The translations under genes were made by a program, and so were the position numbers. The notes below the pieces were generated by a model. It was not told the origin of the DNA. It worked only from the letters and a program-made list of their open reading frames with translations, and did not search any database. Source: Alphaproteobacteria bacterium (GTDB lineage Bacteria; Pseudomonadota; Alphaproteobacteria; Sphingomonadales; Sphingomonadaceae). From it: a stretch of DNA of 47,815 bases. Numbering within the stretch: the first letter of the stretch is position 1; each line of letters opens with the position of its first letter. The stretch is from contig JAUIJI010000007.1 of NCBI GenBank assembly GCA_030431435.1, positions 1-47,815 on the forward strand. The letters run 5' to 3'. Of this stretch, positions 2,099 through 11,642 are shown piece after piece.

Positions 2099-2619
2099 TA
2101 CTTCTGCTCCATCGCGGCCAGATCGGCCGGGGTGTTGATATTTGCCGGTGTGGATGCGCTCTTCACAGGCCGTGCGTTCACGGTCTTCGCGAAGGCAAGC
2201 ATCGAGTGGCGTCCTTCACTCTGGAGGATCGCCTCTGCCGCGCTTGCGGTTTCCACATTCCAATGCCCGATAACGGGCTGCGATTCAAGATAAGCCGGTG
2301 CGGGCGAGAGCTCTGCCAGGAGGTTTTCCGGCAAGGCCACGCTGTCCACGCCGCATGTCAGGATCGAGGTGTAGTCATGATCCTGGGCATGGCGCAGCCC
2401 GCCGGCAATACCGGCAAGAGGCCCCATGCCTGCGCGCGGCCAGTCGGGGATGCAGCGGGCAGGGCCATTCTCCCGCCCGACGATCACCACTTCCTCGCAC
2501 CATGCAGACAGCGCATCGACCGCACGGATGAGCAAGCTGCGCCCGTCCAGCTCGGCCAGCGCCTTGTCGCTGCCGAAACGGGTGCTCATGCCACCTGCGA
2601 GGACGACGCCGAGGATCAT
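2098..2619 (-). CDS. mobA: Molybdenum cofactor guanylyltransferase MobA
   Basis: Transfers GMP from GTP to Mo-molybdopterin to make the MGD cofactor that the adjacent formate dehydrogenase needs. 173 residues, a little shorter than E. coli MobA. The N-terminal nucleotide-binding motif LAGGMSTRFGSDKAL is at residues 7-21 and the metal-binding Asp is likely D92 in TCGVDSVALP. The C-terminus has the NINTPADL motif usual for MobA. It lies between fdsB and fdsA on the same strand; its stop overlaps the fdsA start, while a 124-bp gap containing a hairpin repeat pair separates it from fdsB. Placement inside the fds operon suggests cofactor maturation is co-expressed with its target. Identification is strong from both motif and context. 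Confidence 0.93.
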   Translation of the reverse strand: MILGVVLAGGMSTRFGSDKALAELDGRSLLIRAVDALSAWCEEVVIVGRENGPARCIPDWPRAGMGPLAGIAGGLRHAQDHDYTSILTCGVDSVALPENLLAELSPAPAYLESQPVIGHWNVETASAAEAILQSEGRHSMLAFAKTVNARPVKSASTPANINTPADLAAMEQK

Positions 2620-2637
2620 CAGGATTCTTCCTCTGAT

Positions 2638-2728
2638 CCGTTCGCCCTGAGCTTGTCGAAGGGCCGTCCTTCCTTCTGGCGCACGGCCACAAGAAAAAGC
2701 GGTGCTTCGACAGGCTCAGCACGAACGG
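2638..2728. repeat. Inverted pair of REP-like sphingomonad mini-hairpin repeats
   Basis: Two 28-nt copies face each other, at 2638-2665 (plus) and 2701-2728 (minus). They differ at five positions. Four of these form two compensatory base-pair changes in the short stem: GCCC/GGGC in copy 1 versus GTGC/GCAC in copy 2. The shared loop carries TGAGC(T/C)TGTCGAA. Covariation points to selection or copying as a hairpin. The pair sits between fdsB and mobA inside the operon, where it could affect mRNA stability or read-through. The motif resembles a repeat common in sphingomonad genomes (from memory). Confidence 0.8.
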
Positions 2729-2743
2729 AAAAAGAAATTGTCA

Positions 2744-4303
2744 TTACTCGGCCGCGTCCAGCGCCTTTTCCACGGCGTCAGGGTTGTTCACGAAGTCACC
2801 CGGCCAGTTCTTCAGTGCACTCATCACCGGATAGGGCGTGAAGCCGCCCAGCGCGCAGAGCGAGCCGAACTTCATCGTGTCACAAAGGTCCGTCAGCAGG
2901 GCTATTTCCTGCTCGACGCTGCGGCCCTTGTCCTTGGGCGTGTTGTGCATCTGCGGCGCGGTTTCCAGCGTATCACGCTCGCGCCCGCCGGAACGGATGC
3001 GGTCGATGATTTCGGTGCCGCGCACCGCGCCGATGCGGCAGGGCGTGCACTTGCCGCAGCTTTCCGCCGCGCAGAATTCCATCGCGAAGCGGGCCATCTC
3101 GCCCATGTCGGCGGTATCGTCGAACACGGTGATGCCGGCATGGCCGATCAGCGCGTCAGCATCGGCATATTCCTCATAGCCGAAGGCGATGTCGAACTGG
3201 TCAGGGTGGAGGTATGCGCCCAGCGGACCGCCAACCTGCACGGCCTTGACCGGACGGCCCGATGCCGTGCCGCCGCCGATGTCGTTGACAAGCTGGCCCA
3301 AAGTCATGCCGAATGGGGCTTCGAACAATCCGCCATGCTTGATGTTGCCAGCCAGCTGGATGGGCATGGTGCCCTTCGAGCGGCCAATGCCGCGCTCCGC
3401 ATATTCGGCAGCGCCACCTTCCTTGAGGATATGCGGCACGGCAGCGAGCGACAGCACGTTGTTGACCACGGTCGGGCGGCCAAGGAAGCCTTCGAGCGCG
3501 GGCAGCGGCGGCTTGGCGCGCACTTCGCCGCGCTTGCCTTCAAGCGAGTTCAGCAGCGAAGTTTCTTCGCCGCAGACATAAGCGCCTGCACCCACGCGCA
3601 CTTCGCATTTGAAGGGCGCGATGATATCCGCGCACAGCTTCAGTGCTGCATTGAGCTTGCGGATCGCATCGGGATATTCGCTGCGAAGGTAGATATAGCC
3701 CTGGTCAGCGCCGACGGCTTCACCGGCAATCGCCATGCCTTCGATCAGGGCAAAGGGATCGCCTTCCATCGCCATGCGGTCAGCAAAGGTGCCGCTATCG
3801 CCTTCGTCGGCATTGCAAACGATGTATTTCTTGGGGCCGGGTGCGCCGAGCACCGTCTTCCACTTGATGCCGGTGGGGAAGCCCGCACCGCCACGGCCAC
3901 GCAGGCCCGAGGCGGTCACTTCCTCGACAATCTGTTCCGGGCCGATCTGGCGCGCGCGCTTGAGGCCGGACCAGCCGCCATGCGCTTCATAGTCTTCAAG
4001 GCTCAGCGGGCGCGTCTTGCCAGCGCGGGCGAAGGTGAGGCGCGTCTGCGCGGCGATGAAGGGATGCTCTTCGATCGTGCCGATGGCCTTGTCGGACGAT
4101 CCGTCAAGGATGGCATCGACATCGTCCAGCGTTGCCGGGCCAAAACCCTTGCCATCGATCTCTACCAGTGGCTCGAGCCACTGCATGCCCCAGCTGGAGG
4201 TGCGGTGCACTTCGCAGCCCTTCTTTTCGAAGGCTGCGGCGAGCTTGTCTGCGCCTGCCGCACGGGCCAGCGCGTCGTCGGAAATCTTCACGATCTGGGT
4301 CAT
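2744..4303 (-). CDS. fdsB: NAD-dependent formate dehydrogenase beta subunit (NuoF-like diaphorase)
   Basis: FMN- and NAD-binding subunit that passes electrons from the Fe-S chain of the alpha subunit to NAD+. 519 residues. The N-terminal ~100 residues form a thioredoxin-like 2Fe-2S-type region that has lost most cluster cysteines, as is common in FdsB. The NuoF core follows with the FMN motif GRGGAGFPTG (136-145), the NADEGDSGTFADR region (165-176), and the 4Fe-4S motif ESCGKCTPCR (C416, C419, C422) with the fourth Cys in SLCALGG (C483). The start overlaps the fdsG stop by four bases (ATGA), so expression is coupled. 124 bp with an inverted repeat pair separate it from mobA. Soluble cytoplasmic enzyme. 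Confidence 0.96.
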   Translation of the reverse strand: MTQIVKISDDALARAAGADKLAAAFEKKGCEVHRTSSWGMQWLEPLVEIDGKGFGPATLDDVDAILDGSSDKAIGTIEEHPFIAAQTRLTFARAGKTRPLSLEDYEAHGGWSGLKRARQIGPEQIVEEVTASGLRGRGGAGFPTGIKWKTVLGAPGPKKYIVCNADEGDSGTFADRMAMEGDPFALIEGMAIAGEAVGADQGYIYLRSEYPDAIRKLNAALKLCADIIAPFKCEVRVGAGAYVCGEETSLLNSLEGKRGEVRAKPPLPALEGFLGRPTVVNNVLSLAAVPHILKEGGAAEYAERGIGRSKGTMPIQLAGNIKHGGLFEAPFGMTLGQLVNDIGGGTASGRPVKAVQVGGPLGAYLHPDQFDIAFGYEEYADADALIGHAGITVFDDTADMGEMARFAMEFCAAESCGKCTPCRIGAVRGTEIIDRIRSGGRERDTLETAPQMHNTPKDKGRSVEQEIALLTDLCDTMKFGSLCALGGFTPYPVMSALKNWPGDFVNNPDAVEKALDAAE

Positions 4304-4728
4304 GCGTTTTCTACCAGCTTTGTCACGGCTTCCTTGTCCAGCCGGATATGAAGGTCGTCACCCGTGCGCGCGGCGGGGCCGGAGCTGCACAGGCCGAGGC
4401 AATAGACGGTCTGGATTTTCACCCGGTCGCCTGCTGCGGCCTTGGCATCGCCAATGATGTTCTCGACGCCGCGTGCCTTGCAGGCTTCCGCGCGGCAGAT
4501 CTGCACCACGGGGCGCGTTTCCGGCTCCGGCGTGTAGTCATGGTAGAAGCTCACCACGCCGTGCACTTCGGCGCGGCTGAGGTTGAGGCCCTTGGCGATC
4601 AGCGCTTCGGCTTCGGTGTCGACGCAGCCGAATTCTTCCTGCACGTCATGCAGGATCGGCAGCAGCGGCCCTTCGCGGCCATGGTGTTCGGCAATGATCT
4701 CGCCGATTTTTTGTTCTTTTGTGCTCAT
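4300..4728 (-). CDS. fdsG: NAD-dependent formate dehydrogenase gamma subunit (NuoE-like)
   Basis: Small 2Fe-2S subunit of the formate dehydrogenase, related to NuoE. 142 residues from the ATG at 4728, chosen because it has a GAGAGA ribosome-binding site and gives the usual N-terminus; a longer in-frame start would run into fghA. The 2Fe-2S ligands are C78, C83, C110 and C114 in the CRAEAC and CLGLC motifs. It overlaps fdsB by ATGA and starts 8 bp after the fghA stop. Gene order fdsG-fdsB-(mobA)-fdsA matches the fds operon layout of Rhodobacter/Cupriavidus-type enzymes apart from the inserted mobA. Confidence 0.96.
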   Translation of the reverse strand: MSTKEQKIGEIIAEHHGREGPLLPILHDVQEEFGCVDTEAEALIAKGLNLSRAEVHGVVSFYHDYTPEPETRPVVQICRAEACKARGVENIIGDAKAAAGDRVKIQTVYCLGLCSSGPAARTGDDLHIRLDKEAVTKLVENA

Positions 4729-4736
4729 GTTCTCTC

Positions 4737-5576
4737 TCAGGCTTTGAGCCTTGCGGCGTGCCATTCGATGTGATCGGCCATGAAGGTCGAGATGAAGTAA
4801 TAGGAGTGGTCGTAGCCATCGTGGAGGCGGATCGTCGCGTCCATACCGGCTTTGGTGACAGCCTCTTCGAGCAGGTGCGTCTTCAATTGCTCTTCAAGGA
4901 AGTTGTCGGCGCGCCCCTGGTCCACCAGCAGGTCTGGCAGGCGGGCCCCGTCTTCGATCAGGACGCAGGCGTCATATTCGCGCCAGGCCGCCTTGTCCGC
5001 GCCGATATATCCCGTCAGCGCCTTCTCGCCCCACGGGCAATTGAGCGGGCTGACGATGGGCGCAAAGGCGCTGGTCGACTTGTACCGACCGGGATTGCGC
5101 AAGGATATGGTGAGCGCGCCATGGCCGCCCATCGAATGGCCGGTGATGCCTTGCCGCTCCATGTCGACCGGGAAGTTCTCGGCAACCAGCGCGGGCAGTT
5201 CTTCCTCGACATAGCGGCGCATGTGGAAATGCCCGGACCAGGGGGCTTCGGTCGCGTTGACATAGAAGCCCGCGCCCTTGCCAAAATCATAGCCTTCATC
5301 GTCAGGCACATCATCACCGCGCGGGCTCGTGTCGGGGCAAACGAAGATGATGCCGTTGTCAGCACAGGCCTTCCGGTATTCGCCTTTTTCCATGACATTG
5401 GCATGGGTGCAGGTGAGGCCCGACAGGTAGAACAGCACCGGCAGCTTCGCGCCGGCCTCATGCTCGGGCACGAAGACCGCGAAAGTCATGCTGGTGCCGG
5501 TGGCGGTGCTGTCGTGTGAATACACGCCCTGCGTGCCGCCGAAGGCCTTGTTCTCGCTGACGGTTTCCAAACTCAT
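4737..5576 (-). CDS. fghA: S-formylglutathione hydrolase
   Basis: Hydrolyses S-formylglutathione to formate and glutathione, the step between FrmA and formate dehydrogenase. 279 residues from the ATG at 5576, which has an AGGA ribosome-binding site and avoids overlap with the upstream VOC gene. Alpha/beta-hydrolase (esterase D family): nucleophile S148 in GHSMGGHG, with D224 (GRADNF) and H257 (YDHSYYF) as the likely rest of the triad. Oxyanion-loop sequence LSGLTCTHAN is at 51-60. Neighbours on the same strand are the VOC genes upstream and fdsGB downstream, so the whole chain from formaldehyde to CO2 is linked. Cytoplasmic. Confidence 0.97.
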   Translation of the reverse strand: MSLETVSENKAFGGTQGVYSHDSTATGTSMTFAVFVPEHEAGAKLPVLFYLSGLTCTHANVMEKGEYRKACADNGIIFVCPDTSPRGDDVPDDEGYDFGKGAGFYVNATEAPWSGHFHMRRYVEEELPALVAENFPVDMERQGITGHSMGGHGALTISLRNPGRYKSTSAFAPIVSPLNCPWGEKALTGYIGADKAAWREYDACVLIEDGARLPDLLVDQGRADNFLEEQLKTHLLEEAVTKAGMDATIRLHDGYDHSYYFISTFMADHIEWHAARLKA

Positions 5577-5587
5577 GCGTCCTGCCT

Positions 5588-5968
5588 TCAGCCCACTGCC
5601 TTGAGCAGGCACAGCTTGTGTCCGTCAGGATCGCGCAGATAGGCGAGGTAGAGCTTCTTCTCGCCGAAATCGCGCACGCCGGGCGGGTCTTCGCAAGCCG
5701 TGCCGCCATTGGCGAGGCCGGCTGCGTGCCAGGCATTGCCCTTTTCCTCACTGTCCACCGCGATGCCGATGGTGTTGCCATTGGCCGGATTGGCAGGCTC
5801 GCCATTGATTGGCTTGGTCACCATGAAGATGCCGCCATTGTGAGCATAGACGAGACGGCCCTTGGGATCATAGATGCCTTCCGGTCCGCCCAGCGCGGTG
5901 AAGGTGGCATCGTAGAACGCCTTGGACTTTTCGAGGTCGTTCGATCCGACCATGTGATGGCTGTACAT
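5588..5968 (-). CDS. VOC (glyoxalase-fold) family protein, copy 3 of 3
   Basis: Third of three tandem paralogues between frmA and fghA. 126 residues, a single vicinal-oxygen-chelate domain of two beta-alpha-beta-beta-beta units: N-terminal YSHHMVGSNDLEKSKAFYDA, central NGNTIGIAV, helix NAWHAAGLANGG, and C-terminal YLAYLRDPDGHKLCLL. The first metal-ligand His (residue 4) is kept; the usual C-terminal Glu ligand (NKIEAV-type motif) is replaced by Cys. VOC proteins include glyoxalase I, which acts on glutathione hemithioacetals. S-hydroxymethylglutathione is such a compound, so a role in formaldehyde handling is plausible but is only inference. Spacing to the flanking genes is 6-11 bp, so it is co-transcribed. 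Confidence 0.85.
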   Translation of the reverse strand: MYSHHMVGSNDLEKSKAFYDATFTALGGPEGIYDPKGRLVYAHNGGIFMVTKPINGEPANPANGNTIGIAVDSEEKGNAWHAAGLANGGTACEDPPGVRDFGEKKLYLAYLRDPDGHKLCLLKAVG

Positions 5969-5974
5969 GAGGGG

Positions 5975-6355
5975 TTATCCTTCGACATTGGTGGTGAAGG
6001 CACACAGCTTGTTTCCCACCGGATCGCGCAGGTAAGCGCCGTAAAGCTTGTTCTCGCCCATGTCGCGGCGACCGGGCGGGCCATCGCAGGTGCCACCGTT
6101 CGCCAAGCCAGCAGAATGCCATGCATCGACTTCCTGCTGGCTCTTGGCGGACAGGCCGATGGTGCCGCCATTGGCAAAGCTTGCCTCTTCCCCGTTGCGC
6201 GGGCGCACGACGCTGAAGAAACCGCTTTTGTAATCGCCGTAATAGGCGCTTTCACCCATGCGGTTGCCGGGAATCCCCAGCGCCCCGAAGGTCGCATCGA
6301 AGAATGATGCGGACGCTTCGGGATCATTGGTTCCCACCACGATATGGGTGAACAT
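5975..6355 (-). CDS. VOC (glyoxalase-fold) family protein, copy 2 of 3
   Basis: Middle paralogue, 126 residues from the ATG at 6355; a GTG two codons earlier is possible but would lengthen it relative to its sisters. Motifs: MFTHIVVGTNDPEASASFFD, NGGTIGLSAKS, VDAWHSAGLANGG and YGAYLRDPVGNKLCAF. As in the other two copies, the N-terminal His ligand remains, the second ligand position (often GTHVAF in relatives) is Thr, and the C-terminal Glu is Cys. Gap to copy 3 is 6 bp and to copy 1 is 11 bp. Specific function unknown; the shared substitutions suggest the three arose by duplication and keep one chemistry. Confidence 0.85.
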   Translation of the reverse strand: MFTHIVVGTNDPEASASFFDATFGALGIPGNRMGESAYYGDYKSGFFSVVRPRNGEEASFANGGTIGLSAKSQQEVDAWHSAGLANGGTCDGPPGRRDMGENKLYGAYLRDPVGNKLCAFTTNVEG

Positions 6356-6366
6356 CGACACGGCTA

Positions 6367-6747
6367 TCAGGCGTTTTCGTTCGGTGCGAAAGCGCAGATC
6401 TTGTTGCCATCGGGATCGCGCAGGTAAGCGCCATACATGTGGCCCGGCGAGCTTTCGCGCACACCCGGTGCTCCTTCATCGGTGCCGCCCGCAGCGAGAC
6501 CGGCTGCGTGCCATGCATCGACTTCGGCATAGCTCTTGGCCTTGAGGCCCAGCGTCGCGCCGTTCGAAACGCAGGCTGCTTCGCCATTGGCAGGCTTGCA
6601 CACGGCAACTGCGCCGTCGGCATTGGCATAGACTGTGCCGTGCGGCAGTTCATGGCCAGGGCCGACACCGATTTCGCTCATCGTGGCATTGTAGAACGCG
6701 CGCGACTTTTCGATGTCATTGGTGCCAAGGAAAACGTGATTGATCAT
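6367..6747 (-). CDS. VOC (glyoxalase-fold) family protein, copy 1 of 3
   Basis: First of the three tandem copies, 126 residues, with the best ribosome-binding site (AGAGGAG before the ATG at 6747). Motifs: INHVFLGTNDIEKSRAFYNA, NGATLGLKAKS, VDAWHAAGLAAGG and YGAYLRDPDGNKICAF; His at residue 4, Cys replacing the C-terminal Glu ligand. It starts 158 bp after the frmA stop; that gap holds two stem-loops, so the VOC-fgh-fds genes may be partly uncoupled from frmA. Known relatives are mostly annotated only as VOC or glyoxalase/bleomycin-resistance proteins; no substrate can be read from sequence alone. Confidence 0.86.
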   Translation of the reverse strand: MINHVFLGTNDIEKSRAFYNATMSEIGVGPGHELPHGTVYANADGAVAVCKPANGEAACVSNGATLGLKAKSYAEVDAWHAAGLAAGGTDEGAPGVRESSPGHMYGAYLRDPDGNKICAFAPNENA

Positions 6748-6778
6748 GGGTCAGTTGCTCCTCTCAAAACAACGCGAA

Positions 6779-6800
6779 ACACCCGAGGGGATTCGGGTGT
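6779..6800 (-). other. Stem-loop upstream of the VOC genes
   Basis: Inverted repeat ACACCCGA/TCGGGTGT (6779-6786 with 6793-6800, 6-nt loop) in the frmA-VOC gap, about 30 bp upstream of the first VOC start. It could be an operator, an mRNA leader hairpin or a processing site. No clear T-tract follows on either strand. Confidence 0.4.
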
Positions 6801-6863
6801 GCGTGACTCGGTTCATCACATAGCCGAAAACTTCGGTAATGTGAAAGAATGAATTGGCGATGT

Positions 6864-6898
6864 GCGGCACCTGCGAAACGCCTTGTCGCAGGTGCCGC
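6864..6898 (-). terminator. Strong stem-loop just after frmA
   Basis: Perfect 13-bp inverted repeat: GCGGCACCTGCGA at 6864-6876 and TCGCAGGTGCCGC at 6886-6898, with a 9-nt loop. It starts 8 bp after the frmA stop codon (minus strand). It lacks a U-run, so it may be a partial terminator or a 3'-end stabilising hairpin that sets frmA mRNA above the rest of the operon. Confidence 0.55.
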
Positions 6899-6905
6899 GA
6901 ATTCA

Positions 6906-8018
6906 TCAGAAGACGACGACCGAGCGGATGGATTTGCCTTCGTGCATCAGGTCGAAGGCGGTGTTGATCTCTTCCAGCCCCATGACGTGGGTGATCATCG
7001 GGTCGATCTCGATCTTGCCCTGCATGTACATGTCGACGATCTTCGGCACGTCGGTCCGGCCCTTCGCGCCGCCGAAGGCCGTGCCGCGCCAGTTGCGGCC
7101 CGTCACCAGCTGGAACGGGCGCGTGGCGATTTCCTTGCCCGCTTCGGCCACGCCGATGATCACACTGGTGCCCCAGCCGCGGTGGCAGGCTTCCAGCGCC
7201 GTGCGCATTACCTCGGTATTGCCGGTGGCATCGAAGGTGTAGTCCGCCCCGCCATCGGTCATCTCGACGATCTTCGCGACAATGTCCTCGCGGCTCATGC
7301 CCTTGGTGTTGAGGAATTCGGTCATGCCGAACTTGCGGCCCCATTCTTCGCGGTCGGGATTGATGTCGACGCCAATGATCTTGTTGGCACCGGCAAGCCG
7401 CGCACCCTGGATCACGTTCAGACCGATCCCGCCAAGGCCGAACACCACGACATTGTCGCCCACCTGCACCTTGGCGGTATTGGTGACAGCGCCCACGCCG
7501 GTCGTGACGCCGCAACCGATGTAGCAGCTTGACTGGAACGGTGCGTCCTTGCGGATCTTGGCGACGGCGATCTCCGGCAGCACGGTGAAGTTCGAGAAGG
7601 TCGAACAGCCCATGTAGTGGAAGATCGTCTCGCCCTTGTAGCTGAAGCGGCTGGTGCCGTCCGGCATCAGGCCCTGCCCTTGGGTAGCGCGGATCGCGGT
7701 GCAAAGGTTCGTCTTGCCCGACAGGCACGACTTACACTGGCGGCATTCCGGGGTGTAGAGCGGGATCACGTGATCATCCGGTGCGACCGAGGTCACGCCC
7801 GGGCCAACCTCGCGCACGATGCCGGCGCCTTCATGGCCCAGGATCGAAGGGAAGATGCCTTCGCTATCGAACCCGTCCAGCGTGTAGGCGTCCGTATGGC
7901 AGATGCCGGTGGCCATGATCTCGACCAGGACCTCGCCTTCCTTCGGGCCTTCGAGGTCCACTTCGACAATCTCGAGCGGCTTCTTCGCTTCAAAGGCTAC
8001 GGCGGCACGGGTTTTCAT
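6906..8018 (-). CDS. frmA: S-(hydroxymethyl)glutathione dehydrogenase / class III alcohol dehydrogenase
   Basis: Zn-dependent dehydrogenase that oxidises S-hydroxymethylglutathione (formaldehyde + GSH) to S-formylglutathione with NAD+; it also reduces S-nitrosoglutathione. 370 residues, normal length. Catalytic Zn ligands C40, H62 and C169 (GICHTD, GHEGAG, CGVTTG); structural Zn C92, C95, C98, C106; Rossmann motif GLGGIG at 194-199; and the class III signature MPDGTSRF. Start ATG at 8018 with an AAGGAGCG site. First gene of the formaldehyde operon on the minus strand. Two dyads lie in the 126-bp upstream gap; no FrmR or Gfa homologue is visible in the window. Confidence 0.98.
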
Positions 8019-8048
8019 CGGGATCGCTCCTTGCGTTATTGTCAGTCG

Positions 8049-8073
8049 TTTCCGGTTTGCGGCCTACCGGAAA
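8049..8073 (-). promoter_or_regulatory. Candidate operator upstream of frmA
   Basis: Perfect 8-bp dyad TTTCCGGT/ACCGGAAA at 8049-8056 and 8066-8073 with a 9-nt spacer, 31 bp upstream of the frmA start. A second imperfect dyad (GGGG at 8080-8083 with CCCC at 8089-8092, flanked by TGACA/TGTCA) follows at once. Both sit where a repressor or activator of frmA would bind. The regulator is not identifiable. Confidence 0.45.
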
Positions 8074-8101
8074 TTGACAGGGGTTCTACCCCAAATGTCA
8101 G

Positions 8102-8134
8102 CGGGCGGACCTGCTCTCCCAGCCAGTCCGCCCG
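8102..8134 (-). terminator. Stem-loop after the MFS gene
   Basis: Inverted repeat CGGGCGGAC (8102-8110) and GTCCGCCCG (8126-8134) with a 15-nt loop, ending 10 bp beyond the MFS stop on the minus strand. No U-tract, so termination is a guess. It may separate the transporter gene from the frmA operon. Confidence 0.45.
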
Positions 8135-8144
8135 ACAGATGTCG

Positions 8145-9560
8145 TCAGGTTGAGGCCTTGGCGCGCTCTGCTGCTTCCAGTTCCATATCCTCATCCGCAT
8201 CGCGGATCGGCATGAAGAAAAGTAGCAGCGCAGCCAGCACCGAGCCGATGCCCATCAGCAGCGAGACGGTGAGCAAATTGTCCACCCCGCCGTTGATATT
8301 GTCGAACAGCCAGCCAGCCACGACGGGCGACCCGGCTGCGCCCAGGCGGCCCACGCCAAGCACGAAGCCCGTGCCGCTGCCGCGCGCATAGGCGGGGAAG
8401 CTGAGGGCGAAGGCGGCGTAGTAGCCGACGATGGCCGCGTTCGAGAAGAACATGGTGAGCAGCGCGGCGATACGCCAGTCCCACAGGCTTTCGTGACCAA
8501 GGCCGAAATAGCCCACGGCAGCAACACCCAGAAGCGCGGCAATGATCGTCGGCGCCTTGATACCGAACTTCTTCAGGAAGAAGCCGAAGATCGCGCCGCC
8601 GATGGCCCCGCCGATATTGGCGTAGGTCAGGCTGCTGGCACCCTCTGCCGGGGTGAAGCCGGCCAGCGCCACGATCGTCGGGGCGTTCTTGAGGATGTAG
8701 TAGAAGGTGAAGGTGTGGAACATGTAGCCAAAGGCCAGCATCAGCGTGACCGGACGCAGGCGCGGGTTGGCCAGGATGTCCGTTGCCTTGGGCTTGGGGC
8801 CGGTTTCCAGTACTTCCGGCAGCGAATCGATCGCCGCCTTGCCGAAGGCCTTCAACGACTTGTTGAGCTTCTCCAGCGCGCCAGCCGGGCGGCGAGCCGC
8901 GTAGAAGGCCGGGGTTTCGGGAACCAGGAAGATCACCAGGGGGATCATCGCTGCGGTAACGACAGCACCGAAGATGAACACATCGTGCCAGGTGCCGACA
9001 ACCAGCAGCCATTCCTGCGCCGCAAAGCCGCCGATCACACCGCCGACCGGATAACCGATAACGTAGAAGGCCATGGAGACAGAGCGACCGGTCGAGCTGG
9101 TGACTTCGGCCACCACCGCGTTGGTCGCGGCCAGCATGCCGCCGATGCCGAGGCCGGTGATGAAGCGCCAAAGTACGATATCGGTCAGCCAGCCGGTGCC
9201 CGGTACGCCGGGCAGCAGCTGCCAGTAGGTGGCATGGCCTGCCAGCCACATGCCCACAGTCATCACCGCGAGGCAGGTGAGCATGGTAATCTTGCGGCCG
9301 TATCTGTCGGCCATTCCGCCGAGGATGACCGAGCCGAAGCCCATGCCGACAAGTTCGGCAGACAGGACCACGCCCAGCTGGGTGCGGTCGATGCCCCATT
9401 CGGCCATCATGCCCGGGCCGGCAAAGGCGCTCGACAAGACGTCGAAGCCATCCAGCGCGTTGAGAAACACCATCAGCACCACCACGGCGATTTGCCGCGA
9501 GCCCATGGGCGTGTCCTTGATTACTGCAATGGGGTTTGCGCCCCCGGCGGGTCCGGCCAT
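8145..9560 (-). CDS. MFS transporter, aromatic acid:H+ symporter (AAHS) type
   Basis: Inner-membrane uptake permease, 471 residues from the ATG at 9560 (AGGAGAGGATC site). About 12 hydrophobic segments. The first carries LNALDGFDVLSSAFAGPGM, matching the AAHS signature region (LDGFD in TM1), and the loop after TM2 has GGMADRYGRK, the MFS A-type motif. The central loop has the PETPAF motif. AAHS members such as PcaK and VanK import protocatechuate- and vanillate-type acids; its place beside a MarR regulator and a lignostilbene dioxygenase suggests a lignin-derived aromatic as substrate (inference). The MarR gene ends 34 bp upstream on the same strand. Confidence 0.88.
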   Translation of the reverse strand: MAGPAGGANPIAVIKDTPMGSRQIAVVVLMVFLNALDGFDVLSSAFAGPGMMAEWGIDRTQLGVVLSAELVGMGFGSVILGGMADRYGRKITMLTCLAVMTVGMWLAGHATYWQLLPGVPGTGWLTDIVLWRFITGLGIGGMLAATNAVVAEVTSSTGRSVSMAFYVIGYPVGGVIGGFAAQEWLLVVGTWHDVFIFGAVVTAAMIPLVIFLVPETPAFYAARRPAGALEKLNKSLKAFGKAAIDSLPEVLETGPKPKATDILANPRLRPVTLMLAFGYMFHTFTFYYILKNAPTIVALAGFTPAEGASSLTYANIGGAIGGAIFGFFLKKFGIKAPTIIAALLGVAAVGYFGLGHESLWDWRIAALLTMFFSNAAIVGYYAAFALSFPAYARGSGTGFVLGVGRLGAAGSPVVAGWLFDNINGGVDNLLTVSLLMGIGSVLAALLLFFMPIRDADEDMELEAAERAKAST

Positions 9561-9594
9561 TTTCAGATCCTCTCCTGAACTCTCTCTCGCGCCT

Positions 9595-10074
9595 TCAATC
9601 GTGGATTCGCGCCAGCATTTCCACCAGTTTTTCAATTTCCTCGTCTGTAAAACGGCTTTTCAGCCAGTTTTCATGGCTTTCGATGCAGTGTTTCGCCTGA
9701 TCAAGCACCTTTTCGCCGGCCCTTGTCAGGGACAGCGCCTGTTTTCGCCCGTCGTTTGGTGAACGTTTGCGCTGCAGATAGCCGCGCTCCTCCAGCCGGT
9801 TGACGATGGTCATGGTCGTCGCCCTGTCCATCTGCAACCGGTTGCCCAGTTCGATCTGGGCGATCTGCGGCTGGTCGCTTACCAGCCAGAGGATCGAGAC
9901 CTGCTTCTGCGTCAGGCCAAGATCGGCAAAAGTCTCGTTGAAATGGCGATAAACCGCGCCATGTGCGAGGCGGATATGGAAACCGACAATGCTGTCCAGC
10001 GCGCCGATCGCGTCGCCCGCATCATCCTTGTTCTTGATCAATGCGCCGCTTGCCACGCTATGGTTCCCGTCCAT
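9595..10074 (-). CDS. MarR-family transcriptional regulator
   Basis: Winged-helix regulator, 159 residues from the ATG at 10074; a longer TTG start at 10125 would cover the putative operator and is less likely. Core: TQKQVSILWLVSD, IELGNRLQMDRATTMTIVNRLEERGYLQRKRSPNDGRKQALSLT, which is the MarR recognition helix and wing, with a C-terminal dimerisation helix. MarR proteins of aromatic clusters usually repress until bound by an aromatic ligand or its CoA ester. Divergent from the lignostilbene dioxygenase gene (80-bp gap) and co-directional with the AAHS transporter, so it probably controls both. Confidence 0.92.
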   Translation of the reverse strand: MDGNHSVASGALIKNKDDAGDAIGALDSIVGFHIRLAHGAVYRHFNETFADLGLTQKQVSILWLVSDQPQIAQIELGNRLQMDRATTMTIVNRLEERGYLQRKRSPNDGRKQALSLTRAGEKVLDQAKHCIESHENWLKSRFTDEEIEKLVEMLARIHD

Positions 10075-10106
10075 TGGAGTGCCCGCCCTGCGGGTGTCTT
10101 GCCTAT

Positions 10107-10125
10107 TTGTTAGTAAAGCATACAA
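10107..10125. promoter_or_regulatory. Candidate MarR operator in the divergent promoter
   Basis: AT-rich imperfect palindrome TTGTTAGTAAAGCATACAA, with half-sites TTGTnnG and CnnACAA, in the 80-bp gap between the divergent MarR and dioxygenase genes. Size and symmetry fit a MarR site. It lies 30-48 bp upstream of the dioxygenase start, overlapping where a promoter would be. Confidence 0.45.
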
Positions 10126-10154
10126 TTCCGCGCAAGGAGAGGACTCGAAACACT

Positions 10155-11642
10155 ATGGCGCATTTCCCGGACAATCCGAACTTTACCGGCTTCAACACCC
10201 CCAGCAGGATCGAGGCGGATATCGAAGACCTCGTCCATGAAGGCGAGATTCCCAAGGGCATCGACGGCGCATTCTTCCGCGTGCAGCCCGATCCGCAGTT
10301 CCCGCCGCTGCTGGGCGATGACATCGCCTTCAACGGCGACGGCATGATCACCCGCTTCCACATCCATGACGGGCAGGTGGACTTCAAGCAGCGCTGGGCC
10401 AAGACCGACAAATGGTTTGCCGAACGCAAGGCCGGTCGCGGGCTGTTCGGCAAGTATCGCAACCCCACCACCGATGATCCCTCGGTGAAGGGCATGATCC
10501 GTTCCACGGCCAACACCAATGCCTGGATTTACGCTGGCAAGCTGTGGGCGATGAAGGAAGACAGCCCGGCGCTGGTGATGGACCCGGTGACGATGGAAAC
10601 CGAAGGGTTCGAAACCTGGGAAGGCACGATGAAGAGCGAAACCTTCACCGCCCATCCCAAGATCGATCCGGCCACCGGCAACATGGTGGCCATCGGCTAT
10701 GCCGCATCGGGCCTGTGCAGCGACGATGTCTCCTACATGGAGGTCGACAGCGACGGAAACCTTGTGCGCGAGAAGTGGTTCAAGGTGCCGTACTATTGCA
10801 TGATGCACGACTTCGCGATCACCGAGGATTACCTGGTGCTGCACATCGTGCCGTCCACCAGCAGCTGGGAGCGCCTCAACGCCGGCGAGATCCACTTCGG
10901 CTTCGATACGACCATGCCGGTCTATCTCGGCATCATCCCGCGCAGGGACGATTTGAAGGACGAGGATATCCGCTGGTTCAAGCGCGACAACTGCTTTGCC
11001 AGCCACGTGGTCAACGCCTGGCAGGAAGGCAGCAAGGTCCACTTCGTGATCCCCGAAGCGAAGAACAACATGTTCCCCTTCTTCCCCGATATCCACGGCG
11101 CGCCGTTCAACGGTGCCGAAGCGATGAGCAAGCTCACCCGCTGGACTGTGGACATGGCGAGCAATGGTGACGAGTTCGACGAAATCGAACAGCTGACCGA
11201 AACCGCCAGCGAATTCCCCCGGATCGACGATCGCTTCGCTGGCGTGAAGACGCGCTACACCTGGGGCCTCGAGATGGACATGAGCCGTCCCAACGAGCTG
11301 AAGGGCGGTAGCGCTGGCGGTTTCCTGATGAACTGCCTGTTCCTCAAGGATCTGGAAACAGGCGAAGAAAAGCACTGGTGGTGCGGCCCCGTTTCTTCCC
11401 TGCAGGAGCCCTGCTTCATCCCGCGCAGCAAGGATGCACCCGAGGGCGATGGCTGGATCGTGATGCTTTGCAACCGGCTGGAAAACCGCAATTCGGACCT
11501 GCTGATCTTCGATGCGCTCGATATCGAAAAAGGACCGGTGGCGACGGTCCACGTGCCTATCCGCCTGCGCTTCGGCCTGCACGGCAATTTCGCCCGTTCG
11601 GAAGATATCGGGCTAAAGGCGCCGGAACCGGTGCCCGCCTGA
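10155..11642 (+). CDS. Lignostilbene dioxygenase (carotenoid cleavage oxygenase family), NOV1-like
   Basis: Fe(II) dioxygenase that splits the central double bond of 4-hydroxystilbenes such as lignostilbene to two aromatic aldehydes (vanillin). 495 residues from the ATG at 10155 (AAGGAGAGG site). The four iron-binding histidines fall at H167, H218, H284 and H476, and the residues that recognise the phenol ring fall at F59, Y101 and K134. These are the numbers I recall for Novosphingobium aromaticivorans NOV1, implying very close colinearity. Seven-bladed propeller family; cytoplasmic. Divergent from MarR and upstream of a serine hydrolase gene. Activity on stilbenes rather than carotenoids is well supported by K134/Y101; the exact substrate is not known. 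Confidence 0.93.
   Translation: MAHFPDNPNFTGFNTPSRIEADIEDLVHEGEIPKGIDGAFFRVQPDPQFPPLLGDDIAFNGDGMITRFHIHDGQVDFKQRWAKTDKWFAERKAGRGLFGKYRNPTTDDPSVKGMIRSTANTNAWIYAGKLWAMKEDSPALVMDPVTMETEGFETWEGTMKSETFTAHPKIDPATGNMVAIGYAASGLCSDDVSYMEVDSDGNLVREKWFKVPYYCMMHDFAITEDYLVLHIVPSTSSWERLNAGEIHFGFDTTMPVYLGIIPRRDDLKDEDIRWFKRDNCFASHVVNAWQEGSKVHFVIPEAKNNMFPFFPDIHGAPFNGAEAMSKLTRWTVDMASNGDEFDEIEQLTETASEFPRIDDRFAGVKTRYTWGLEMDMSRPNELKGGSAGGFLMNCLFLKDLETGEEKHWWCGPVSSLQEPCFIPRSKDAPEGDGWIVMLCNRLENRNSDLLIFDALDIEKGPVATVHVPIRLRFGLHGNFARSEDIGLKAPEPVPA

Follow-up and report, generated by a model that had tools for sequence, protein, structure and literature searches.

Three tandem genes for small VOC-fold proteins lie between frmA and fghA in the window, the 47,815-nucleotide stretch of Sphingomonadaceae DNA analysed here, and the link between such VOC genes and the formaldehyde genes is real. 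In this Sphingomonadales family, the VOC genes look like a regular accessory component of glutathione-dependent formaldehyde oxidation. In this pathway, FrmA converts S-hydroxymethylglutathione to S-formylglutathione, which FghA hydrolyses; the glutathione-formaldehyde adduct itself forms fast without an enzyme. We give an even chance to the proposal that the three proteins, VOC1 to VOC3, are non-canonical VOC-fold accessory proteins that handle glutathione-aldehyde adducts for FrmA and FghA. The observation made in an earlier, sequence-only reading of this DNA is confirmed and its interpretation is partly supported, as detailed below. The genes of the locus follow each other on the minus strand in the order frmA, VOC1, VOC2, VOC3, fghA, two formate-dehydrogenase-type subunits, and a MobA-like gene:

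6906..8018, minus strand: frmA, S-(hydroxymethyl)glutathione dehydrogenase / class III alcohol dehydrogenase (TIGR02818 equivalog)
6367..6747, minus strand: VOC1, VOC-family protein of 126 aa with Cys at the C-terminal ligand position (PF00903)
5975..6355, minus strand: VOC2, 126 aa from an ATG start (PF00903; in a supported clade of five, all linked)
5588..5968, minus strand: VOC3, 126 aa, of a large widespread type (PF00903; AlphaFold2 pLDDT 96.4)
4737..5576, minus strand: fghA, S-formylglutathione hydrolase, with its ATG at 5576 (TIGR02821 equivalog)
4300..4764, minus strand: thioredoxin-like [2Fe-2S] subunit, probably of an NAD-linked formate dehydrogenase (PF01257; role from context)
2744..4303, minus strand: Nuo51-type FMN/4Fe-4S subunit, probable formate dehydrogenase subunit (PF01512, PF10589; role from context)
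2098-2619: MobA-like gene, after the formate-dehydrogenase-type subunits in gene order

Both flanking genes scored above the cut-offs of their NCBIfam equivalogs (frmA, 609.8 bits against 543.95 for TIGR02818; fghA, 417.4 bits against 281.7 for TIGR02821) and form an frm cluster on one strand, 1.3 kb apart. All three VOC proteins exceed the Pfam gathering threshold of 20.6 bits for PF00903 (Glyoxalase), with 32.5, 29.0, and 22.0 bits. The sequence-only reading had described three paralogues of 126 residues spaced 6–11 bp apart. This holds for the gaps between VOC1 and VOC2 (11 bp), VOC2 and VOC3 (6 bp), and VOC3 and fghA (11 bp), but the larger gap of 158 bp between frmA and VOC1 had gone unmentioned. 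VOC2 has an alternative GTG start at 6361, which would add two residues (128 aa). The three proteins are 47–51% identical to each other (59/125, 58/124, and 63/124), and with VOC2 as query they are the sole matches in their own genome at E up to 0.01. This genome holds 19 PF00903 matches in all, i.e., 17 further ones besides VOC1 and VOC2. Judging from context, the formate dehydrogenase subunits 3′ of fghA probably carry out the next pathway step. On its other side, frmA is adjoined by an RPE65-family gene (possibly lignostilbene-dioxygenase-like) that is divergent from MarR and MFS genes (8145-11642); such an oxygenase/MarR/MFS group would fit the breakdown of aromatic dimers as a source of formaldehyde.

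We surveyed 63 genomes of the window's family, Sphingomonadaceae, representing 62 genera, using a VOC cut-off of E up to 1e-12 and counting a VOC gene as linked when no more than 3 kb separated it from a co-oriented frmA or fghA. frmA is present in 62 of these genomes, fghA in 55, and a VOC gene of the window's subfamily in 61. Linked VOC genes were found in 42 of the 63 genomes, one copy in 32, two in 8, and three in 2, with none in the remaining 21. Altogether, 54 of 132 VOC matches were linked (54 near frmA and 48 near fghA), compared to about 0.3 expected for genomes of 3.2 Mb. Linkage was concentrated in the closest relatives, comprising 50 of the 65 best-scoring matches and only 4 of the other 67. 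Thus, a scatter of the orthologues away from frmA, which the sequence-only reading had named as evidence against its idea, was not seen for 42 of 63 genomes and 50 of 65 best matches, although 78 of the 132 matches, mostly lower-scoring members, do lie away from frmA and fghA. This conserved linkage lends good support to the reading's assignment of the VOC proteins to the glutathione-dependent oxidation of formaldehyde.

A second set consisted of the window and 80 frmA regions chosen by genus among the matches listed. A VOC gene follows frmA in 46 of these 81 loci, i.e., in 44 of 65 within Sphingomonadaceae and 2 of 16 in other Sphingomonadales families of this chosen set. Where a locus holds both genes, the VOC end lies within 60 bp of fghA in 28 of 38 cases. 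The other recurrent genes that we sought at the 81 loci were rarer than VOC: a cupin gene in 11, and genes that we take to be YbaK-like in 5 and PurU-like in 3. Recurrent genes of this sort are seen at L022, L024, L059, and other frm loci, as well as at positions 5779-6642 of L241. Across Alphaproteobacteria, linkage is rare, with one case (G297) in 144 genomes besides three Sphingomonadaceae when the tables were compared by eye, and a second linked case, G386 (L119), whose frmA is cut by the contig end.

To these surveys we added named loci, the best 80 of 161 relatives from a contig search, with flanks of up to 6 kb (some contigs were shorter). frmA or fghA is present in the fetched flank of 36 of the 80 and absent in 44. 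At all 26 loci where the match resembles VOC1 most (L124-L149), the matched gene lies beside frmA; 10 of the 54 others are linked. The closest named relatives with the same layout, among the matches listed, include Aurantiacibacter and Alteraurantiacibacter species. frmA or fghA is also present in regions L088, L090, L092, L094, L095, L103, L111, and L119. Where the loci are split, VOC can occur with either gene: in L090, L092, L094, and L095, fghA has a VOC gene immediately 5′ of it and frmA is missing from the fetched flank, whereas the seven records L140-L146 (six from Novosphingobium, one a Sphingomonadaceae MAG) have VOC1 immediately after frmA and show no fghA in the flank fetched (just 1.3 kb for L142).

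The number of VOC copies at the frm locus ranges from 0 to 4. Alteraurantiacibacter buctensis (L137, 6001-7541) has four tandem VOC genes between frmA and fghA. In L124, a second VOC copy lies in short pieces between VOC1 and VOC3 (6397-6573) and is possibly a copy being lost. A Sphingomonas parapaucimobilis plasmid carries an annotated frmA-VOC-VOC-purU-fghA series with overlaps of 1–4 bp, followed by folE; the name purU is that of the plasmid annotation. Together with the cupin, YbaK-like, and formyltetrahydrofolate-deformylase-like genes at other frm loci, purU and folE suggest a tie to folate one-carbon metabolism. The three plasmid matches examined in Sphingobium, Agrobacterium, and Roseomonas have no frm genes beside VOC.

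Unlinked relatives occur in Shewanella, Halopseudomonas, Acidovorax, Caulobacter, Bradyrhizobium, and others, and L091 is an unlinked sphingomonad gene of the VOC1 type. Tandem VOC pairs without frm genes nearby are seen in L164, L188, L110, and L113. Clustering of the neighbours at 65 free-standing VOC loci revealed no telling common neighbour among the 22 largest clusters examined; the biggest cluster of genuine neighbours, which encode an ABC ATPase-like protein, covers 8 of the 65 loci. A cluster of 34 was rejected as a neighbour gene since it represents the VOC gene read in a frame of the opposite strand. Because 44 of the 80 named loci lack frmA and fghA in the fetched flank and the free-standing loci share no telling neighbour, formaldehyde may have no part in the family's basic function.

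A tree of 109 VOC sequences (75 linked and 34 unlinked; 127 columns; 32 of 106 forks left open) placed VOC1 in a supported clade of 10 rows, 9 of them linked, and VOC2 in a supported clade of 5 rows, all linked, whereas VOC3 fell inside a large widespread type without a supported small set. A fresh tandem triplication was therefore rejected as the origin of the three genes. The linked and unlinked labels change 12 times on the tree, with at least 6 changes forced by supported branches (29 for shuffled labels), which implies repeated arrivals at, or departures from, the frm locus by members of the VOC family. As judged from substitution rates between orthologues, the VOC genes are under purifying selection, with dN of 0.09–0.26 and dS of 0.79–1.2 for VOC1. 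Constraint is weaker than in VOC1 for both VOC2 (dN 0.14–0.43, dS 0.85–1.8) and VOC3 (dN 0.24–0.28, dS 0.78–0.87).

VOC3, the one protein that we folded, gave an AlphaFold2 model of a VOC barrel with a mean pLDDT of 96.4. Its second beta-alpha-beta-beta-beta module is complete (E67-70 H74-86 E97-100 E105-112 E118-125) and the second strand of its first module is only 2 residues long in DSSP; both VOC modules are present and the Foldseek matches are VOC structures. The model places His4 on strand one, Thr66 immediately ahead of the second module, and Cys120 on the final strand. The retained His, the Thr in the middle, and the Cys at the C-terminal ligand position were correctly read from all three proteins in the earlier note. 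Of the 75 linked sequences, 73 have the His/Thr/Cys set, as do 23 of the 34 unlinked ones; since so many unlinked sequences carry it, the set characterises the subfamily and does not point to formaldehyde. We defined a 4QB5-like VOC subfamily, called after the nearest solved entry, by these three residues plus N63, G64, R99, D113, and K118, and the latter five are present in 109 of 109 sequences, VOC1-3 included.

Metal-dependent glyoxalase I has four metal ligands: His, Glu/Gln, His, and Glu. VOC1-3 lack this set: His4 is kept, but Thr66 stands opposite a His and Cys120 opposite a Glu in the alignment with 4Z04, and on the strand of the remaining ligand none of the 75 linked sequences has Asp or Glu at positions 48-51, with 2 Glu at position 47. 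L210, another glyoxalase-domain protein of the same genome, has Glu opposite Cys120 in the alignment. Because of Thr and Cys at the ligand positions and the lack of Asp/Glu at 48-51, a classical VOC metal site is unlikely in VOC1-3. The His/Cys pair in the pocket may serve thiol chemistry or simple binding. Isomerisation of the glyoxalase I type requires a carbonyl adjacent to the hemithioacetal, normally a metal too, and S-hydroxymethylglutathione has no adjacent carbonyl to isomerise. With the metal ligands gone and this carbonyl absent, classical glyoxalase I chemistry is unlikely, and the analogy to glyoxalase I drawn in the sequence-only reading is weak.

The gap between frmA and VOC1 holds two elements:

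6864..6898, minus strand: hairpin with a 13-bp stem just after the frmA stop codon, from the fold of the 161-nt gap region
6815..6846, minus strand: conserved dyad TTTCACA-N3-CCGAA-N3-TTCGG-CTATGTGAT, upstream of VOC1

The fold of the 161-nt region as a whole has a z of -5.9, and the hairpin stretch differs in sequence in three other species compared. With up to 3 mismatches, the dyad is present in 14 of 298 Sphingomonadaceae genomes (5 of 96 genera), in one copy each, and the reversed control pattern had no match among the matches listed for these 298 genomes. All 14 copies lie at the frm locus, 13 directly upstream of the VOC gene closest to VOC1 and one directly upstream of fghA. In L233, L234, and L240, which have an extra VOC gene between frmA and VOC1, the dyad adjoins VOC1. 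When up to 4 mismatches are allowed, 14 of the 26 named loci of the VOC1 type have it. L233-L236 and L240 have lost part of the palindrome. TTCACA and TATGTG, 17 bp apart, resemble a -35/-10 promoter with the dyad in its spacer, which makes the dyad a candidate regulated promoter/operator of a VOC1-VOC2-VOC3-fghA unit. A simple promoter scan of positions 2600-8300, which did not score the dyad, gave no sigma-70-type site, and Rfam has no family at the dyad site. Frame 0 of the dyad (FHK.E.FGYVM) has no stop codon within the motif in any of 26 loci (L132 and L239 belong to one genome); 5 of the 30 rows of the frame table are opposite-strand readings of the same site. The loci do not share a start codon, a stop codon, or flanking sequence, and substitutions occur at all three codon positions; therefore, a small protein was rejected and we read the dyad as a DNA element.

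Three findings favour a role in the formaldehyde pathway: the linkage, the occurrence of VOC with either gene at split loci, and selection. As a relative has a glutathione-bound structure, the VOC proteins most likely handle a glutathione-aldehyde adduct. Each of them would bind such an adduct in its barrel, with the His/Cys pair, not a chelated metal, as the working site. A VOC protein might then deliver S-hydroxymethylglutathione to FrmA, or it might convert side adducts, i.e., hemithioacetals of other aldehydes or rearranged glutathione-formaldehyde adducts, into products that FrmA or FghA could process further. Substrates would then differ between the diverged copies. A more elaborate version, which we put forward only tentatively, has metal-free His/Cys VOC proteins of several subfamilies as a third pathway component that acts on S-hydroxymethylglutathione or side adducts and is partly under its own conserved promoter. 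Against any such role stand the 21 of 63 genomes without VOC at the locus, the 14 of 16 frmA loci of other families that lack it, the tandem VOC pairs far from frm genes, and the speed of adduct formation in the absence of an enzyme.

Three other explanations have to be weighed. The VOC proteins could form a glyoxalase pair with FghA for the clearance of mixed aldehydes, turning hemithioacetals of 2-oxoaldehydes (methylglyoxal, glyoxal) into S-acylglutathione for FghA to hydrolyse. The closeness of VOC and fghA (within 60 bp in 28 of 38 loci) fits such a pair, and the 20-fold higher activity of Escherichia coli YeiG on S-lactoylglutathione than that of FrmB makes the pairing with FghA possible (review PMC4776306, in extract). 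We consider it unlikely, however, with the ligands replaced by Thr and Cys, no Asp/Glu at 48-51 in 75 linked sequences, and 17 further PF00903 matches in the genome that could serve instead. Alternatively, VOC could join glutathione and formaldehyde for FrmA as a Gfa-like glutathione carrier or S-hydroxymethylglutathione synthase. Its position beside frmA and the solved relative 4Z04, titled as a glutathione complex, are in line with this, as is the precedent of Paracoccus denitrificans Gfa, which was reported to bind glutathione (PMC4682968, in extract). Yet no match to PF04828, the Gfa domain, was found in VOC1-3 at E up to 0.1, one carrier would not obviously need three diverged copies, and the genome has four GFA-domain matches over the cut-off (L204-L207, on other contigs), so that this reading, too, seems improbable. 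The statement of the sequence-only reading that no Gfa is visible therefore applies to the window but not to the genome. A search of the 81 frmA loci with a single GFA query from the same genome, which is a weak probe, found no match.

Finally, the VOC genes could be passengers, a small-gene family of labile copy number that sits near frmA by shared locus ancestry and not by function. Free-standing members, sometimes in tandem elsewhere, copy numbers of 0 to 4 at the locus, and the partial copy in L124 are what one would expect of passengers. The linkage found in 42 of the 63 genomes (62 genera) is not, nor are the several subfamilies at the locus with their short gaps, the retention of VOC next to frmA or fghA at split loci, and the signs of purifying selection, and we regard this explanation as very improbable.

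Whether the first step of glutathione-dependent formaldehyde removal is assisted by an enzyme has been stated to be unclear (PMC4682968, in extract), and a VOC family present beside frmA and/or fghA in 42 of 63 genomes is a candidate for aiding this step or for cleaning up side adducts. The link also bears on lignin-degrading sphingomonads, in which formaldehyde is released from aromatic dimers (PMC11323797, in extract). In Novosphingobium aromaticivorans, a mutant in FdhA (the frmA homologue, Saro_0874) accumulates formaldehyde from a lignin dimer, and Saro_2822 is the predicted FghA; a text search of the article gave no match for glyoxalase or VOC (PMC11323797). Likewise, a review of bacterial formaldehyde metabolism gave no match for glyoxalase, VOC, or Sphingo (PMC8879981). 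In the open-access literature that we searched, we found no report tying VOC or glyoxalase genes to frmA/fghA in sphingomonads, and no mention of '4QB5'.

Compared to known systems, VOC1-3 belong to a different protein family from Gfa (PF04828). P. denitrificans Gfa was reported not to speed up adduct formation and a carrier role was proposed for it (PMC4682968, in extract), and in Rhodobacter sphaeroides gfa adjoins adhI (PMC4776306, in extract). VOC3 shares the VOC fold with E. coli glyoxalase I (1F9Z; Foldseek TM 0.63) but is distant from it in sequence (profile E 0.0008), and the metal-ligand set of 1F9Z is not found in VOC1-3. The E. coli enzyme binds Ni through a His/Glu/His/Glu set. Closer is 4Z04, a probable lactoylglutathione lyase of Brucella melitensis whose title gives it as a complex with glutathione: it ranks second by sequence profile (5e-20) and is the next fold entry after 4QB5 (fifth row, TM 0.79), but it is only 23% identical to VOC3 and carries a Glu at the place of Cys120 and a His at that of Thr66. 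Nearest of all solved entries is 4QB5 (profile E 2.7e-54; Foldseek TM 0.92 and 56% identity to the VOC3 model), a glyoxalase/bleomycin resistance protein of Albidiferax ferrireducens T118 that is named by family only and shares with the VOC1-3 subfamily the starting His and the Cys in NKICAL.
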